From Seison nebaliae (lineage: Eukaryota > Rotifera > Pararotatoria > Seisonacea > Seisonidae), in NCBI GenBank assembly GCA_023231475.1, contig JALJEE010002175.1, forward strand, positions 62,001 to 126,000: a stretch of 64,000 nt of DNA, given 5' to 3'. Each line of letters starts with the position of its first letter. Positions within the stretch are counted from its first letter, which is position 1. The notes below the pieces were generated by a model. That model saw nothing but the letters and a program-made list of their open reading frames with translations, did not search any database and was not told the origin of the DNA. Positions 11,920 to 40,602 of this stretch are shown here, one piece after another. The translations under genes and the position numbers were made by a program.

Positions 11920-12808
11920 ATGGTAGTTGCGGAAAAGAAGTTCAAGCGAAACTTACAGCAATGTTTATCCGTGTTGAAAATGCGAGTTCGCCGCCAACGT
12001 ATTCGCCTGACAAGAAAAGCAAGTGATTGTGAAATGATCGGGAAATATTTTCCATCGAAGAAGGTCTCGCTAGTTAGCGGAAAATATAATGAAGAAAGGA
12101 AGACGACAAATTATACGAATAAAGTTCAACAATATCTCCACGAAGTTACTATTCCTCAATTTGACTCTTAATTCATTAATCTTTTCTCCTAATTAGATGA
12201 ATGATGACATGCAATTAACAACATTTCCGATGCCATTTTTACATTCGACACTTAACGAATATCATTTGGAAAGTTGGAGGAATGTCAAATGTCAAACAAT
12301 TCATGATATATCACAATGTTGTTGTTGTTTCTGTTTCACCTCCTCAATAAATCAAGAAGAAGAATTGATCAGTTTGGACGAAAGTGAAGAAATGATCAAT
12401 TTCGACGAATGTGAAGAATGCGCGAAAATCCAATGTAATACGAGTAGATCCGAGGAATTTATTGATTACGATTCCATCCAAAGCGAAGAGAATGTCGACG
12501 ATGATTGTAATGACATTAGTCTCCCAGCTAATTATCATGAATTCGAACTCATATTGAAAAGATCAACTTCCACCAACTACGACTCGTCCTCCGAACATTT
12601 CCATGATGATTCCAACCATTCCTATGAACACACAACTTCTAATGATGATCGAACGGAATGGACAGATTGTAGCGACATGTCGATAGAGAGTCGTCAAATC
12701 GTCAATAGAAATTCGAAGCGGAATCATTCCTCCCAACAACCTAATGAGTGTCACAGTGCTAAAATTCGTGAAATCGTATGTGCTAATAATGGATATTTGT
12801 TAATTTAA
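11920..12808 (+). CDS. Two-exon acidic orphan protein with Cys-rich patch
   Basis: Proposed exons are 11920-12144 and 12197-12808, giving 278 aa. The join uses a GTTACT donor and a TAATTAG acceptor (52-bp intron) and keeps frame. The N-terminal 75 residues are strongly basic (many Arg/Lys), perhaps nucleic-acid binding or a localisation signal. The second exon has a cysteine patch (CCCCFCF, about residues 115-121). It is followed by an acidic stretch with three related units, LISLDESEE, MINFDECEE and FIDYDSIQSEE, then a Ser/Asp/His-rich tail. The family is unknown. If the splice is wrong, the two parts are separate ORFs, each opening with ATG. It sits 0.6 kb upstream of the neuropeptide gene on the same strand. 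Confidence 0.5.
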
Positions 12809-13422
12809 CCTCATTCCCTTCCATCCTTCCATCTATCCATCCACCAAACCGATTATGTTCTTTTCTATTTATCTTATTTATTATTCTTATTATTATTAAA
12901 AGAAAGTCGATATAGTTCTGTTTCTTCGTTTTAGTTTGTCGTGGACGACAAACCGTTAATTCTCCAATTTTCTTATAATCTCTATCGAGATCAAATATCT
13001 GAATGGGAGAAATGATCGAATATATGTATAAATATTTGAAAAAAAAAACCATTTATGTACCATCGTCGTCGAGTTGCACACTCCATTGAGAAGAAACATT
13101 TGGGGTGGGCTAATGTAATTATGACCGACGATGTCAACGGATACGAATTAGGAAGAATAATGAAAGAATCTTCTTAATTTAAGAAGAGATTTTTGTGATT
13201 GATTGGAAGATTGCATTTTCGGTCTTCCGATTAATATTAGGATTGTTTCTTTCCATTTTCTTATGTTTCCCTTCATTATCGCCGTTTGTTTTCATAAGAT
13301 ACTTTCGACGAACTTTTCGAGTGACTTGATCATCTTCGATTCATTCTATTTATTCGACAGAACTATTCATTATTTTTCTTCTTATTCTCTCACAGAACAT
13401 TCACACAATTCCTTAACAACAC
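12809..13422. other. Spacer upstream of neuropeptide gene
   Basis: No separate gene is supported. The plus frame at 13203-13577 overlaps the neuropeptide CDS in another frame and is treated as a shadow. The 'ttctctcacag' near 13385-13395 could be a 3' splice site for a leader exon of the neuropeptide transcript. Confidence 0.4.
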
Positions 13423-13674
13423 ATGAAGAACATTCAATCATATATATTCATCCTTCTTCTTGTCATCACAATGACAATGGCCGCCGATTACACCGAAGAC
13501 AAACGTGCAATGTACATCCCGTTCGGGAAGCGCATGATGCCAAAGCAACAAGATGTTTTCGATCATGGCGAGCATGATGATAATCTATTGGAACTTCTCT
13601 TGCAATCCATTCGAAAGAATTCCCAACAAAGCTATCTAAAGAATCGACGGGCGATGTATATTCCCTTCGGTTAA
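13423..13674 (+). CDS. Putative neuropeptide precursor with two AMYIPF-amide copies
   Basis: An 83-aa secreted peptide precursor, ATG to TAA in one exon. Residues 1 to about 20 form a classic signal peptide (basic start, then IFILLLVIT, small residues before the cut). After a short spacer ending in Lys-Arg comes AMYIPFG followed by Lys-Arg. A 40-aa acidic linker ends in Arg-Arg, and a second, identical AMYIPFG is followed at once by the stop codon. Known neuropeptide processing (prohormone convertase at dibasic sites, carboxypeptidase, Gly to C-terminal amide by PHM/PAL) would give two copies of AMYIPF-amide. The second needs no carboxypeptidase step. I do not recognise this peptide as any standard arthropod family (not SIFamide, RFamide, allatostatin, kinin or pyrokinin). 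A candidate AATAAA lies at 13747-13752. Confidence 0.85.
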   Translation: MKNIQSYIFILLLVITMTMAADYTEDKRAMYIPFGKRMMPKQQDVFDHGEHDDNLLELLLQSIRKNSQQSYLKNRRAMYIPFG

Positions 13675-13746
13675 CGAGGGAACTATCAATAATTCTTATT
13701 TATCCGAATCAATTCTGTCATCTTATCTTCGAATTTTTTTTAGTTT

Positions 13747-13752
13747 AATAAA
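13747..13752 (+). terminator. Candidate polyadenylation signal of the neuropeptide gene
   Basis: AATAAA about 73 nt past the stop codon, at a normal distance for a short 3' UTR. The assignment is inferred from position only. Confidence 0.5.
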
Positions 13753-14874: not shown

Positions 14875-16491
14875 TTAATTGATCGGTTCGTTAATTTGTT
14901 GAACATAAGGAAATAATCGATGATAATGATCACTTGGAATAAAGTTGAATGTCAAATGAGTATCTAAAAAGAAATATATAATGAAAAAATAATTAAATGA
15001 AAAATTGAAACCGTTGAATCTGGTAGTGTTGTGATAGAATTGAATGCATTTGAGTGCCATCGAAATATTTTTCAATTTGATATACCCATGTCCAAGAATC
15101 GAGAATACATCGATATAAATGTGATAAATGAGGAAATTATTCGTGCGGAATTGTTCTTTGATTAGAATTATTAATTCATCTTTAATTTTACTAATTATCG
15201 GTCCTTTAAATAGACCTGTAATCCATAAACATTGTGTGGCAACCACCGCCGGTTGAACTGATACAGGATTGGAAATATTCGACATTTCAGAAATGGAATT
15301 ATCACTAATTTCAATTCTCAATGAACGTCCCACTAATTGGAAACCGTTCATTTTCTCCATAGCACTCTGAGCGTCTTCTGCGTCTTTGAAAGTGACGAAA
15401 GCAAAACATTTTGATAATTTCGGTGCTTCTCCATAAGGAATTATCGATGATAAATTTGAAAATTTCGTCACATCCGTTTCCTCTCGTATTAAACGGATTT
15501 GATCGATGGAACCGAATGATGAGAAAATCAATTCTAACATATCTTCATTAATATTGAAATGTAAATTTCCCACATACAATTTCATCGGACCCGATTTAAT
15601 TATCGATTTCACAACTGGTATATCCGCCACTTTCTGATCAGTTTTCGATGACGATTTAAATATCGACATATCATTTGGTGCCGCTCCATTTCCATAATCT
15701 GATGGTGAAATTGAATTTCCGTTATTTATCATATTACAACATGATGATGTAATTTGATTCATTTCCATTGTATTTTCGGACATCATATTATTATTTAATA
15801 AATCATTCATTGATGATGGGACAACGATGGTGGTAGATGTGGTGGGACAAACGGATGCTCCTGTTGTTGGTGGTTGTGGTCGATTTTTATCGGCATTCGT
15901 CGGTCTCACCACAATTGGATGACCTAAAATCGGTTGGCCATGCATCGCTAATGCTGAAGCGACAGATTCCAATTCCGCAAATTCAACATATCCACAACCT
16001 TTGAATTTTCTTGTTCTCGAATCCATAATTAATTGTACGTCTCGTACTTTTCCCGCTTCAGCGAAAAATTCTTCAATGTCACGTTCACGAACTTTCAATG
16101 GTAATTGCATCAGAAATACAGTTCGTTGTCCACTATCAATATCATCTTTGTCTTCAATTACCGGTTTTGGATGTTTATCCGCATTCATCAAATTATTCGA
16201 ATTAGCAGAAAAGGGACCCGGTGCGATATTCGTCGATTTCTTGTGTCGATCGGGCGATTTGGATTTGGTCGATGAATGACGATGTCGATGTGATCTGGTT
16301 TTCGAATGACTCTTTGAACGACTACGATGGTCTTTTCGGTATGATCTCTTCTCTCGATCATATCGTCTTCGCTCTCGACTTTCATCACTCGATACTCGTC
16401 CACGATAACTATCAAATTGAAATTAAATCATTTTTAAATGGAAAATTTACAAACCTTTTCTTCGATCTTGACGAATAATATTTCTATCCAT
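14875..16491 (-). CDS. RBM39: RNA-binding protein 39 (CAPER alpha) homologue
   Basis: Nuclear splicing cofactor related to U2AF65. Exons are 16491-16451, 16408-15012 and 14963-14875 (introns 42 and 48 bp), giving 508 aa against about 530 in human. The N-terminus to about residue 72 is rich in Arg, Ser, Lys and His. RRM1 (about 109-187) has RNP-like VFLMQL and GCGYVEF. RRM2 (about 288-385) has KLYVGNL and CFAFVTF, plus an unusual insertion of about a dozen residues between beta2 and beta3. The C-terminal UHM-like domain (about 405-500) starts VATQCLWI and ends near DHYHRLFPYVQ, as in the family. Its Arg-X-Phe motif looks degenerate. The first ATG sits 41 nt before intron 1, and the GTAAAT donor gives the only join that restores the RS frame. 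It diverges from DCTN6 across 594 bp. Confidence 0.93.
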
Positions 16492-24868: not shown

Positions 24869-27163
24869 TCATCTAGAATTTGTCTCATTCATGATGGATG
24901 GTGTTCCAGCGTTAGTGGAATTCTCCAATTTATCATTCATTCGTTTGCGCAATTCACGGCATTTTGAATTACATGAATCGCGTACAGATGGCCACAACTT
25001 TTCATAATCGACAGATCCCAATCGTTGACGGAGACAATCTTTTTAGAAGAACTCTTGAAGAAAACTTTAAGTGTAAAAGTGGAAACCTTTTAGCAATTGA
25101 ATTTTGGAAGAGTCTAATGTCTTAAAACGGGAGAATCGTTCGGTGCCATCAGTTCCTGGCATAATACCATACGCCATTTCATCCCTTGTAAATAGCCGTG
25201 TTAATATTGATCGGGCATATCGATTCAATTGTTGCTTTCCTGACCAACTCACAATCTGCATTAGATCATCCCCATTATAATATACGGAATGATAATCTTT
25301 CTCGAAACTGTTTTGTTCTTGGTCTTCGAATTTCATTTTCTTCCCATTCGTTTCCGAATGTTTCATTGAATCGAGTAACGACTTTTTGGTGGCTTTGTTG
25401 AGGGGGTTTGGAAGAATGTTATTTGAGAATGGAGGATAGTCCTTTGGCATATCATCTACGTCTCTAATAATCTTCTTTTGAGTATTGTTGATGGTTTGGA
25501 GGAGAGTTTTCAACATCGGTAAGAAATTGTGATTACTCTCGTGATCGGAAGATCTGGTTTCATTGTTCGTTTCAGAATTGGATAATAAATTAGTTTGGAT
25601 AAGAAAATTTTGGAGATTGTCCTGTTGGAATAAGGAATTATTAAAATTGATATTATTCTGATCATTGTTAATTGTTGATGATTTATCCGTTTTGATGGAA
25701 TTACTATCAGATAAGTTAATGGAAGAGGTGGGAGATGTTTGTGCTTTTCTCAAAATATTCGAAGGAGAATTATTGAAATTGGAAGTGAAATTGAGATTGT
25801 TGCCATTGGTGGAAGTGTTACCAAAATCGTTGGTGAGAGCCGAAATGGTTTTTTGAGTGTTGATGCTGGTGGGAGTGGAATTGTTCTGTAAGTTTTGTTT
25901 GGCTTCCGATATTCGTTGTAACCAATTCTTATAGAATGTGGTGAATCGACTTGGATCCTCATTCTTTTCATTTAAACTTTTCTTTTTATTATTTAAATGA
26001 TTATTTTGACGGTAATTATCCGTTACGGCAATTGGTGCACTCTGCTGGAAGTAAGAATATTGATTAGTTAATAATTGTTGGAGCATTGTGCGGAAATTAG
26101 AATGTTGCAACAATTCGGACGATTCGTTACAATTGAAATTATTATTTAACTCATTAAAATGAGAAAGAATTTGTGAGAATTGCATATTATTCCCCTCATC
26201 GGACACATTGTTTATTGACGTTGTGTTTGATGTGGTATTAGACGAAGGAACAGAAGAAGACGTTGTTGTGGTCGTTGAAGAAATATTATGTTGATCGTTT
26301 AACTGTTGTTGTTGTTGTTGTTTAAGAATTGAGAGGAATTTTGATAAATTAAATTCGTTATTATCCAATTTATCTTCATTATTATTGTTGTTGTTGTTAC
26401 TATTATTATTATTGTTGTTGTTTTTGCTGTTGTTGCTGTTGTTATTTTGATGTTGATTTTCATTATCATAATTTACCGGGTTTTGTTGATAATTATCTTT
26501 ATTGTTGTTGTTGTTGTTGTTGTCGTTGTTATTATGATTGTTGTTATTATGACTAGGTAACAGGGTATTTAAATTAGATATTTTATTATTAAACATTCCA
26601 TTCAATTCCATACCATTTAGACCGATATCATGATGGAGGTCGTTGTGGTCTTTGGGGAACTTGCGTTTTTTATCCTTCTCATCCATGTGACAAGAGCATT
26701 GGCAGAAGAGATTCTCTTTGTCTAACGAATCATTGGAACGTTTGAGAAACAGCTTTAATAGAGTTTCCATTTTATCAACTTTGATCTCCAAGTGATTTAT
26801 GGAGGAAGCAAATGAAGAGGATAATAATTGAAAACGATCTCTGATTAATTGCAACACATTTGTTTCTAAAGTCTGTTGTTTATTTTGAATGTCTTCTTCT
26901 TCTTCTTCTTCTTCCATTGAATCTATCGGAGGAGTTTCTTTTCTTTCCTCGTTATTCATCTCATCAATTCTTTCTACCATTTCTTCATCATCTACATTCT
27001 CCTCTTCATTATTGCCCGTTATTCCCTTATTGTCGTCTTCATTCCGATCTAATTCGCAGTTATCCTCGTTCTCGTCGAAGATGCAATGTTCATTTTCTTT
27101 CAATTCCGAATTAAATCTCTTTTCATTTTCGTTCAAATGAATTTTTTGTTCATTTCGCAACAT
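24869..27163 (-). CDS. BEN-domain protein with poly-Asn/poly-Gln tracts
   Basis: Exons are 27163-25087 and 25038-24869 (48-bp intron), giving 748 aa. The C-terminal about 110 residues form a BEN domain, a DNA-binding/protein-interaction fold of chromatin factors: NRYARSILTRLFTRDEMAYG, then FKTLDSSKIQLLKDCLRQRL across the splice and DSCNSKCRELRKRM at the end. The N-terminus is very acidic (Glu/Asp/Asn), followed by a helical segment with a FCQCSC motif. A long middle region carries Asn runs (up to about seven), a QQQQQQ run and Ser/Thr runs. Role by family: transcriptional repression or insulator function, in the nucleus. Without the second exon the BEN domain would be cut short, which confirms the join. 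No MADF, BTB or zinc finger is visible. Confidence 0.88.
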
Positions 27164-30100
27164 TAAGGTTTCATGAAAATTTTAGAAGTTTTTCAAATTA
27201 AAATAAATTTTGTAATTCAATTCCGAGACGATATCTTCCCTCAAATCTTTAATTCATTCGAATATTGTGAGTGAGAGAATTTGGTGAGTTCACTTCGTCT
27301 TCTATCGATCTATGGGTGAGGGGTGAGAAGGGAGAAAGAATAATAATGAGGACGAAAAAAAAGTTTATCTATGATTTTTGAGGAATGTGTATATTCTCTC
27401 TAATCGATCGATTCCACGCAAATTGAAAGAAGCGACCGGAAAGCATTGCGAGCAAAGGAACGTGATATGCGATGAGACGTATCAGTAATGATGGAATATA
27501 AGGTAGGAGAAAAGGAAGGAATAAGTGTAACAGAATGGAATAAGTGTTACTTGACTCTTCGTACGTGTTCTTCATTCTCTTAAACAACTTTTCTTCCTTG
27601 ATTCGCACGTAACGAATTCGTGCGCGAGACCTTCTGAAAATGTCATTAGTCATGATAGACGATGAAAGTGAACACGAAAAGTATAGAAGAAAGACTAAAT
27701 GAAGAGGAAAATTAGTTGCGATTACTAAAACAAGAAATATTAATGAAAATAAGACGAATTATAATTATTACAATATTATCACAACAGATAATAATGGCAT
27801 TGATGATCGTGACGAATTCGTCCCACCTAACTTTCAATTACCAATAAAGACGAGATAGATCAGGAGGTAGCAATTCACTACTAACGAATTCCGTAATGAA
27901 TGCACAATGCCTTCTCTCGATTCTCCTTTACACACACCATCCATTAGTTGGTCGTTTCGGGAGTGAGAATTGGCGAATAGGCCGTTGCGTCTCGTGTTCC
28001 ACAAACTTGACTATTCTTTATTTATGACGATTGTTCTATTTGGCTCAACGACTCTCGTACGAGCAATGAACGACTGTGGAATATTTGGGGGGGAGATATG
28101 TATACACAATCATTACATATTGATTAGTGTCTATCTTCATTCTCGATGATGGAGAGACGAAGGTTCGGACTCTACAGTACGACGCATTATATGGTAGTGA
28201 TGTGTATAATATTGTACGTATATTAATAGCATCAGCTAACAAACTTGGTTAAATAAGAGATAGAAATCATGTAAAAATTCTCATTCGTGCAGATGGCACT
28301 CGCTTGTGCTCGTTACATAAAAATTGTGTTTGTGCGAATGAATCGTGAAATAATCACGAATGCCACTCCGATGTCATTAGTATCACGCTATCGACTTCAG
28401 ATAACTGTATCATAGTTGTCATCAGACAATTCTTTGACAAGAACGATAATAAGAGGGGAATGAGCAACAATCAGGTCATATCGATAGAGTGATGGGACAA
28501 GAGTGAAAAGATGAAAGAAGAATCCAAATAAGAAAGTAGTGAGTATTTGTGAACATTTTATATTTTCGTAAGCACATCCCCAATAATGGAGTTATAGATA
28601 AATAAAGTCATCTCTGATTTGTTTCTTATATGATCATTCGTCCAACTACCTCTATTACACAGATTCATCATAACACCATATAACCATTTGAGATGGATGA
28701 GAATGCGATGTGGCTCCTCCTCTATGTGACTGATGGTTATACCGGAATAAATTATTTCACTTCTCAACATTCGACTTTAATTATATTTGGCATGTGATCC
28801 GAATTTTCGATTCGACCTTCTCCATTATACTTCTTCAAAAACTAATTTTTCATCTACTTTCCAAGATTAATCGACGTCCTTTTCATCGAAGAAGCATTGC
28901 ACTTTTGGAGATAAACTTTCTCTAAAAGCATCAACCAAGCACACCGAACTCCGTTCGTGTTTAATTCTGACATTAAACTACTCGTACGTGAGCAACACAT
29001 TCTCCACTTGTACCCGATCGCTGACTCTACATGCTGCCGTGTTGTTCTTATCAGCTAATAATAAATTGCCGCTATGCTAAATTGATAAGTACATGTCCAT
29101 CAATTTTAACTTAGCCCTTCAACTTTACTCTCATGACAAACATTACTTCTTCTCAACTTCTTCTCAACTTCTTCCGATTCTTACGTGATAACCATTTTGA
29201 AGGAAATTACCGTGATGAATCTTGTGCCTATTACCATCTCTCCCAACGGAAAATAGTTCATTAAAATCCTCAACCGTGAACACTAGTGTGATCTACGAGA
29301 TTACGTCACTGATATCGAAAAAACAAAATAAACTTTTCGAAAGAGTCATTACATAAACTTGTCGACTAATTTAAATTAAATATTAAAACTTATTGGCAAA
29401 CACATTATTTAAATCAATCTTCAACTTAATCCCAATTTCATTTCAAGATCCAATAAAGTAGATAAAACTGAATGTTATCGAATAACCAAATCTTAACATA
29501 ATTTCTCTCTTACCGTTAACATGATAATTCTTCTAATTCAGATTGCTGCTCAATAAAAAGAAAATTAATTTTTTTAAATTTATCTTTTCTTTAAAACATT
29601 TCACTAGATTTCTAAATTCGACTCAATTTTAATTTTAAACGGCGGGTACACCTAAAATGATGATATGAATAAAATGAAATACCACAATATTGGTAACAAA
29701 TTGAATTAGGGAAAAGGAAGAAATGAAGGATTTCCTCTGAAATTCAGTAGGAGAAAATCGGTTAATTTGTAGGGAGTCACCCTCGCTAATCATAACAGTT
29801 ATTTGACTTGGAGATAGAACGATGATGAATGTTATGATATCGTTTGGTTTGACGTGATCGACATCGTAATAACAATGACTCGCTTAGCTTGTTGACAAGG
29901 CGATACTACATAGTTGGGTAGGAGATTTCAGTGTAGAAAGTTTTATATGATAATCGTGTATCTAATAGTCAACGTAACTTCCACTTATTTGTGTCACTTT
30001 TTTGATGGATGATTCGTTTCTTCTTTTTTTTCTTATCTGTATTTGTCCTTTAAGAGACTTTATTTCGTTCACTTTTCGGACAATTGCGATTAACCTTCGA

Positions 30101-39140: not shown

Positions 39141-40374
39141 TCAATTCCGCTTATCCAAATCGACGATATACTCCGACAGTTTTCTCAGATATTTCTCCAC
39201 CAACTCCACACTCATCAATCGATAATTTGCGAATGTTTTGCTCTTCCTCAATTTCTCTTGTTTGTTCGTCATTTGTAGTAGACCGCGGACTAATATCGCT
39301 TCATAGTTCTCACTTCGCATATGATCCTGACCATAAATCTTCTTCAATTCTTTGAATGCCGGTTCGTCAGATAATTCGTCTCCCAAACAGATTGTTATCG
39401 TTCTCTTCCATTCTTCCACATTGAAATTCCTCATCAATTCATCCACCACATTATGGTTCTTGATCTTGAGAGTGGAATCCGTATAATTACTTCCATTGTG
39501 CACATATTCGGCAAGCCAAATTAATGCTTTGCCTTTATTCCAATCGAAATCTGGAGAGACCTCATATAAACCATTACCTGAAACATATCATCATATATAT
39601 TAAATAAAATTATAAAAAAATAATAATTTTAAATTTTAAATAATTCAAATTTAATTCAATTAATACAATATAATTAAATATGAAATATAAATATTTTATT
39701 AATGAAACTATTTAAATCTAACCAGGAACCATCGATAAACGAAGTGAATTGGTTTTTATAATTTTTTCCATGATCTTCAAAACCATCCCACAATATTTCC
39801 GTTCCAATTTCACTTTCTCTTCTTTCGACGCTGGACTGGCTTCGATGTAATGTCGAATTCGCTTCGTAAACACCGAACTGCCAATCTGTTTCACTTGAAT
39901 ATCGACATAGTCCATAAGAATTTTATCGTCGATGAATTTCGTTTTTTTCAATTCATTCTCCAAATTCTTATGGAGAGTATCAAAATCATCAACGTAATCC
40001 TTCCCGATATTCTTGATCTCCACGTTCTCATAACCTTGTGATGTCACGCTGTATTTCTTGATGTCGTAACCATGACAACCAGCCACCAATATATCATATT
40101 TTCCTAATTTCTCAGCACCTTGATCAGAATCGCGACCAGTTATCAGGAAAATGTTCACCTGCAATGATTTACACGCCTTCGCTTTCGAAAATAATTCGTC
40201 CAGTGCACTTTTCATTTCATTGGTGAGTGTGGCATTGACGGGATCAATTTCAGGAATGTTCACCAAAGTTCCGTCGTAATCGAGAAAGATATTGAGATAT
40301 TGAACATTCTTCAAATCGAACGCCAATTTCGGTTCAACTAATTTCTTTATATCAACTTCTTCCACTTGAGACAT
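39141..40374 (-). CDS. Trehalose-6-phosphate phosphatase, single-domain
   Basis: Hydrolyses trehalose-6-phosphate to trehalose, the last step of trehalose synthesis, in the cytosol. Exons are 40374-39723 and 39577-39141 (145-bp AT-rich intron, GTTAGA...TTTCAG), giving 362 aa. It is a HAD-superfamily enzyme: nucleophile/acid pair in FLDYDGTL (Asp32, Asp34), motif II in FLITGRD, the family's GCHG segment, the lysine motif WNKGKAL, and the metal-binding GDELSDE (about residue 283 onward). There is no N-terminal trehalose-6-phosphate synthase (GT20) domain, unlike the usual fused insect TPS/TPP. The start is the ATG at 40372-40374, with short helical residues before the core. FAAH lies 228 bp further on in the same orientation. 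Confidence 0.92.
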
Positions 40375-40602
40375 TTGGAGGAAAAAAATGAAAATTGAAT
40401 TCTACAAAACTAAACAAAGAGAAATAATAAATTTTTCGAATTGAGTCACTTTATACCGTTATGTTACTGCTCTTTCCTTTCGAATGGCATCGATTGGAAT
40501 ATGCTTTTATTTCAACAACTAAAATATCTACTGATAATGGAAAAGAATTATGCAAATAATTTTGAGTATTTTTCTTATTCATATTGTTGAGCCTAAAAAT
40601 TT

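Follow-up and report, generated by a model that had tools for sequence, protein, structure and literature searches.

The neuropeptides of rotifers and of their gnathiferan relatives are hardly known. In the passages of a 2021 survey that deal with them, Syndermata are described as still without deeper sampling, and a gnathiferan survey is called "the next frontier" (PMC8557429). The same passages state that very few precursors had been identified in a study with three Rotaria species (PMC8557429). In excerpts of two further papers, FMRFamide and RYamide are reported for Rotifera and FCAP-like peptides for Rotaria (PMC6425005), and an APGW/AKH precursor for Brachionus plicatilis (PMC10730642). 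As far as these excerpts go, the known rotifer proneuropeptides carry peptide sequences other than the AMYIPF described below, and the FCAP-like units have 11 residues and occur in 8 or 9 copies.

Peptides with a similar C-terminal end are described from other animals. The starfish peptides MagS3 (AYHSALPFamide) and MagS4 (AYQTGLPFamide) are L-type SALMFamides in the pertinent passages of their paper (PMC3594158), and an amphioxus kisspeptin-type precursor is described in part of another as having a PFamide peptide (PMC4062910). The LPFamide end of MagS3 and MagS4 resembles the IPFamide end of the peptide from Seison nebaliae, but the two starfish peptides, as given in those passages, are echinoderm peptides of 8 residues with a different N-terminal part (PMC3594158). 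Seison IPFamide is, by these partial accounts, a near miss to the L-type SALMFamide end, and one sea cucumber peptide has Ile in place of Leu. The NLP-10 peptides of Caenorhabditis elegans are amidated and contain IPF. Unlike AMYIPF-NH2, they are nematode peptides with IPF near the N-terminus and a GGMYamide end.

In 5.39 million openly licensed papers (supplements apart), AMYIPF-type spellings had no match, the 4 papers that matched YIPFG-type spellings were unrelated by title, and 2 of the 6 papers that matched PFamide-type spellings dealt with neuropeptides. None of four motif spellings was contained in a paper on schistosome peptides (PMC13026224), and the main text of the S. nebaliae genome paper contained neither "neuropeptide" nor "hormone". 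The AMYIPF-NH2 precursor is of a known kind; as a peptide, AMYIPF-NH2 appears to be new within the searches made.

The putative precursor ORF and its host genome

The gene at 13423-13674 of the window (the whole 64-kb stretch of S. nebaliae DNA that was analysed) is probably a proneuropeptide gene whose product would release two AMYIPF-NH2 peptides. The translation of the plus strand, MKNIQSYIFILLLVITMTMAADYTEDKRAMYIPFGKRMMPKQQDVFDHGEHDDNLLELLLQSIRKNSQQSYLKNRRAMYIPFG*, has 83 residues and runs from ATG to TAA. The features of the locus are as follows.

13394..13395 (+): AG of an acceptor-like site, with 18 pyrimidines among the 20 bases that precede its CAG context
13423..13674 (+): putative peptide precursor ORF, 83 aa, by translation
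13423..13482 (+): signal-peptide-like start, residues 1-20, by hydrophobicity; the -3/-1 rule predicts cleavage behind A20
13501..13506 (+): KR cleavage site 5′ of unit 1, by translation
13507..13527 (+): AMYIPFG unit 1, residues 29-35, with Gly as amide donor, by translation and pattern
13528..13533 (+): KR cleavage site 3′ of unit 1, by translation
13534..13644 (+): spacer between the units, 37 residues, by translation
13645..13650 (+): RR cleavage site 5′ of unit 2, by translation
13651..13671 (+): AMYIPFG unit 2, residues 77-83, by translation and pattern
13672-13674 (+): stop codon directly after the Gly of unit 2, by translation
13747..13752 (+): AATAAA, 72 bases after the stop codon

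The precursor start is led by a lysine and has an 11-residue hydrophobic core from residue 8 with a mean Kyte-Doolittle value of 2.95; the signal peptide was called by a crude hydrophobicity test and the cut after A20 was read by eye. An N-terminal signal peptide (by the crude test), dibasic sites and a Gly in each unit, which define membership among amidated peptide precursors, were all found. An RK inside the spacer may be a further cut site. The AG, which lies 27 bases before the ATG, weakly suggests an acceptor of a 5′ UTR intron or of trans-splicing; with a threshold of 16 pyrimidines in 20, each strand of the window has about 30 such sites. The AATAAA is a similarly weak candidate for a polyadenylation signal in AT-rich DNA (window GC 32.5%). 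The precursor protein was found at one place in the 36.03-Mb assembly, and the AMYIPFG pattern matched only the two units, both inside this gene.

Three other ORFs of the window were noted. Upstream of the precursor on the same strand lies a 203-residue ORF (12197-12808, +) that contains a tandem repeat of 27 bases (12359-12418) and matched no Pfam family at E≤1e-3. On the opposite strand, the first long ORF downstream of the precursor (14875-16422, −) encodes an RRM protein, which we take to be RBM39-like, and is a useful synteny anchor. The ORF at 39718-40401 (−) matched the trehalose-phosphatase domain PF02358 (35.5 bits; cut-off 27) and no PDB sequence at E≤1e-3; for the bdelloid Adineta vaga, the relevant passages of a published study report that no trehalose-phosphatase gene or domain was found (PMC4498783).

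The preliminary description had placed the DNA in an arthropod or chelicerate frame. This was wrong, and such an origin of the window was rejected because the window encodes all 748 residues (748/748) of a named Seison protein. A region of the prospero-like ORF (25067-27181, −) had one protein match at E≤0.001, the hypothetical protein SNEBB_005959 of Seison nebaliae, with 100% identity over 94% of the region; the coding sequence of this protein in the window divides into a stretch for 692 residues and a following one for 56. Seison nebaliae is classified by NCBI in Rotifera, class Pararotatoria, and its published assembly GA2 is given, in the part of the paper concerned, as 43.9 Mb with 31.9% GC (PMC8351084). 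Profiles of arthropod cuticle (PF00379) and of an astigmatid mite allergen (PF11642) had 0 matches in the assembly, and that of nematode cuticle collagen (PF01484) had 1 candidate and 0 matches; none of the three matched a control genome either, so these results prove nothing alone. COX1 also had 0 matches in the assembly.

Processing and probable action of AMYIPF-NH2

A PF01082 profile search of the assembly gave 9 matches; this domain is also present in related hydroxylases. One exon in locus L010 matched 13 PDB sequences, all of them peptidylglycine alpha-hydroxylating or amidating monooxygenases (best E 7e-19), and the His and Met positions of the copper ligands are present in two successive ORFs of this locus. 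The P_proprotein profile had 9 matches, and one convertase (L025) matched furin at 7.5e-95 and kexin at 1.7e-77. With 7tm_1, 118 matches were obtained at E≤1e-3, a count in which the exons of one gene are counted separately and some matches lie below the cut-off. Judged by these matches, the assembly encodes a peptide-amidating monooxygenase, a furin-like convertase and many class-A receptors. Because genes of the first two kinds are present, Seison should, as far as tested, be able to make an amidated peptide.

If the gene is transcribed and its product is processed in neurons, the signal peptide of the prepropeptide would be removed first. Furin/kexin-type convertases would then cut the precursor at KR, KR and RR, and a carboxypeptidase would remove the basic residues left on unit 1; unit 2 would need no trimming because the stop codon directly follows its Gly. 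A Gly that follows a peptide is converted to a C-terminal amide. The amidating monooxygenase would convert the terminal Gly of each unit in this way and yield two AMYIPF-NH2. The released peptide would most likely be a transmitter or hormone that acts on a class-A GPCR, and from the anatomy of the precursor and the enzyme content of the assembly we infer that a secreted, amidated class-A GPCR ligand is its likely mode of action.

The preliminary description had claimed an 83-aa ORF at 13423-13674 with a signal-peptide-like start, and two identical AMYIPFG units with KR on both sides of one and RR and the stop codon around the other. All of this was borne out by translation and by the hydrophobicity test, with the units at the residues listed above. 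Its reading of the ORF as a precursor of amidated AMYIPF-NH2 is well supported by the anatomy together with the amidating and convertase enzymes of the assembly. Taken as a whole, with its mistaken host, its interpretation is partly supported.

Related sequences in Seison and Rotaria

A DNA pattern covering R-A-x3-P-F-G-[K/R]-R matched only the precursor gene on both strands of the 36-Mb assembly, and its reversed control had 0 matches there. The looser pattern Y-x-P-F-G followed by two mostly basic codons had 6 places in the assembly, one of them the precursor gene, against 8 for the reversed control. Five loci were rejected as paralogues: the matches in L018 and L021 fall within repetitive DNA, in short ORFs of 47 and 29 aa, the matching frame of L020 lies in no ORF of at least 20 aa, and L022 (FPFGNR, ORF of 69 aa) and L023 (HPFGNR, ORF of 36 aa) are not dibasic. 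Around base 1500, L018 and L021 carry YQPFGKR and YRPFGRR in one frame, which looks like a dispersed repeat. In bacterial genomes the motif pattern matched 6 places, presumed, without a calculated expectation, to be chance matches; in viral contigs it matched 0.

A query made of tandem units gave 1545 candidates, only one of which had E≤10 (1.7e-3). This was P0004 of Rotaria magnacalcarata, an uncharacterised protein of 121 aa with a signal-peptide-like start that reads as a secreted precursor. Its units are, in order, ASLRPFAG, ASLRPFG, ASLRPLG, ASLRPFG and ASLRPQSYVG, with KR/RR sites between them. Like the Seison precursor, it is a rotifer protein in which a signal-peptide-like start is followed by A-x-x-x-P-F-G units between KR/RR sites, and A-x-x-x-P-F-amide units in a secreted precursor are present in both species. 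ASLRPF-amide agrees with AMYIPF-amide in length, in the first residue and in the last two residues, whereas all three middle residues differ (SLR in Rotaria, MYI in Seison). The layout differs as well, with five neighbouring units in Rotaria and two spaced units in Seison.

The two peptides may come from one ancestral gene and represent a rotifer-wide AxxxPF-amide family, which would be a stronger form of the proneuropeptide reading and which we hold only tentatively. That the sole protein with E≤10 among the 1545 candidates comes from another rotifer and has a like plan argues for it, as does a control in which none of 300 random hexapeptides in the same tandem frame scored as high on P0004 (best 35.0 vs 35.4 bits). 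Part of the likeness is, however, built in, since the tandem query favours proteins that share the words PFGKR and FGKRA. Eight of 300 shuffles of AMYIPF scored above AMYIPF itself on P0004, most of them with the PF end kept; the match thus owes nothing to the middle residues. The precursors differ in copy number, layout and the three middle residues, and their direct BLASTP comparison gave 20.0 bits over the motif only (E 0.003, for a single comparison). A tblastn search of the Seison assembly with P0004, run without a positive control, gave nothing at E≤10. In viral contigs the 14 pattern matches of P0004 included 0 that were confirmed, and ASLRPF-type spellings had no match in openly licensed papers (supplements apart). 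The rotifer family is a lead, not a result. A fuller picture, which is doubtful, is that AMYIPF-NH2 belongs to an undescribed A-x-x-x-P-F-amide family of Rotifera that already existed before Seisonidea and Bdelloidea diverged and was retained when the epizoic lineage lost genes, and that its receptor would be an orphan class-A GPCR of Seison.

Other readings of the ORF and significance

Signal peptide, dibasic sites and Gly indicate secretion and probable amidation only, and these would equally be expected of a non-neural product of the same pathway, e.g. a gland, epidermal, adhesive-organ or antimicrobial peptide. The choice of a neuropeptide over another secreted peptide is something we infer from the peptide itself and from the genome. 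Class-A receptors are plentiful in the assembly, and a short, uncharged, exactly duplicated and cysteine-free hexapeptide fits the usual pattern of receptor ligands and not that of antimicrobial peptides. A non-neural product is, on this evidence, unlikely.

A six-residue peptide in only two copies leaves little sequence for testing the proneuropeptide reading. A chance ORF or a decayed gene without a product also has to be weighed against a gene. The codon-usage score does not support coding: at 0.02 per codon, the frame lies under the median (0.129) of 326 open stretches elsewhere, 70% of which score at least as high as the frame, although it lies above the remaining five frames at this place (−0.34 to −0.53). 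The precursor also matched 0 Pfam families at E≤1, and no homologue of the whole precursor was found, a search of 5.8 billion proteins (scope, proteins of about 46-145 residues) having returned only its own 67-residue form (1/1 candidates).

The repeated unit speaks against chance. The window has 641 stop-to-stop ORFs with lengths of 40-300 aa. Six of them contained a repeated 7-mer that was not of low complexity, and only in the AMYIPFG ORF were both copies preceded by dibasic residues. In the other 5, all repeats lay at multiples of 13 residues, as in tandem-repeat DNA; these five ORFs, found on both strands, are made of 13-residue (39-base) repeat units. No repeated 7-mer occurred in 60 simulated windows with 34,272 ORFs, a lenient control because the first-order Markov model used is unable to make tandem repeats. 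The crude hydrophobic-start test was passed by 6 of 182 ATG ORFs of 40-200 aa in the window, and the AMYIPFG precursor was the one of these 6 with a Gly followed by two basic residues.

The start and stop codons of the ORF are intact and its units diverge only silently. The AMYIPFG units have silent differences at 5 of 6 degenerate codons; over the 8 codons of RAMYIPFG, 6 of 24 bases differ, all silently. When 6 changes were placed over RAMYIPFG at random, all were silent in 1 of 400,000 placements, a value biased upward in favour of a gene because the finding was picked for its identical peptides. No direct DNA repeat of at least 12 bases was reported in 13400-13700. Since the differences are all silent and no such repeat is present, a recent duplication of the units is improbable, and the peptide has probably been maintained. 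We regard a chance or decayed ORF as very improbable.

The least probable reading is that the peptide diverged within a known family, chiefly that of the L-type SALMFamides of echinoderms or that of the kisspeptin-type peptides. Certain members of these have LPFamide or PFamide ends, but only the last two residues are common, the length and the N-terminal part differ, and the compared peptides, as partially presented in their sources, come from deuterostomes.

As a kind of system, the proneuropeptide proposed here is ordinary, a further case of an amidated peptide precursor. Its predicted processed peptide is clear and a bdelloid counterpart may exist, and it would nevertheless offer a concrete entry point to rotifer neuropeptides, and AMYIPF-NH2 is short enough for immediate synthesis and testing. 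Seison is portrayed in parts of two papers as an epizoic animal with marked gene loss (PMC12256650, PMC8351084), and the precursor is relevant to the question of what such an animal may have kept.
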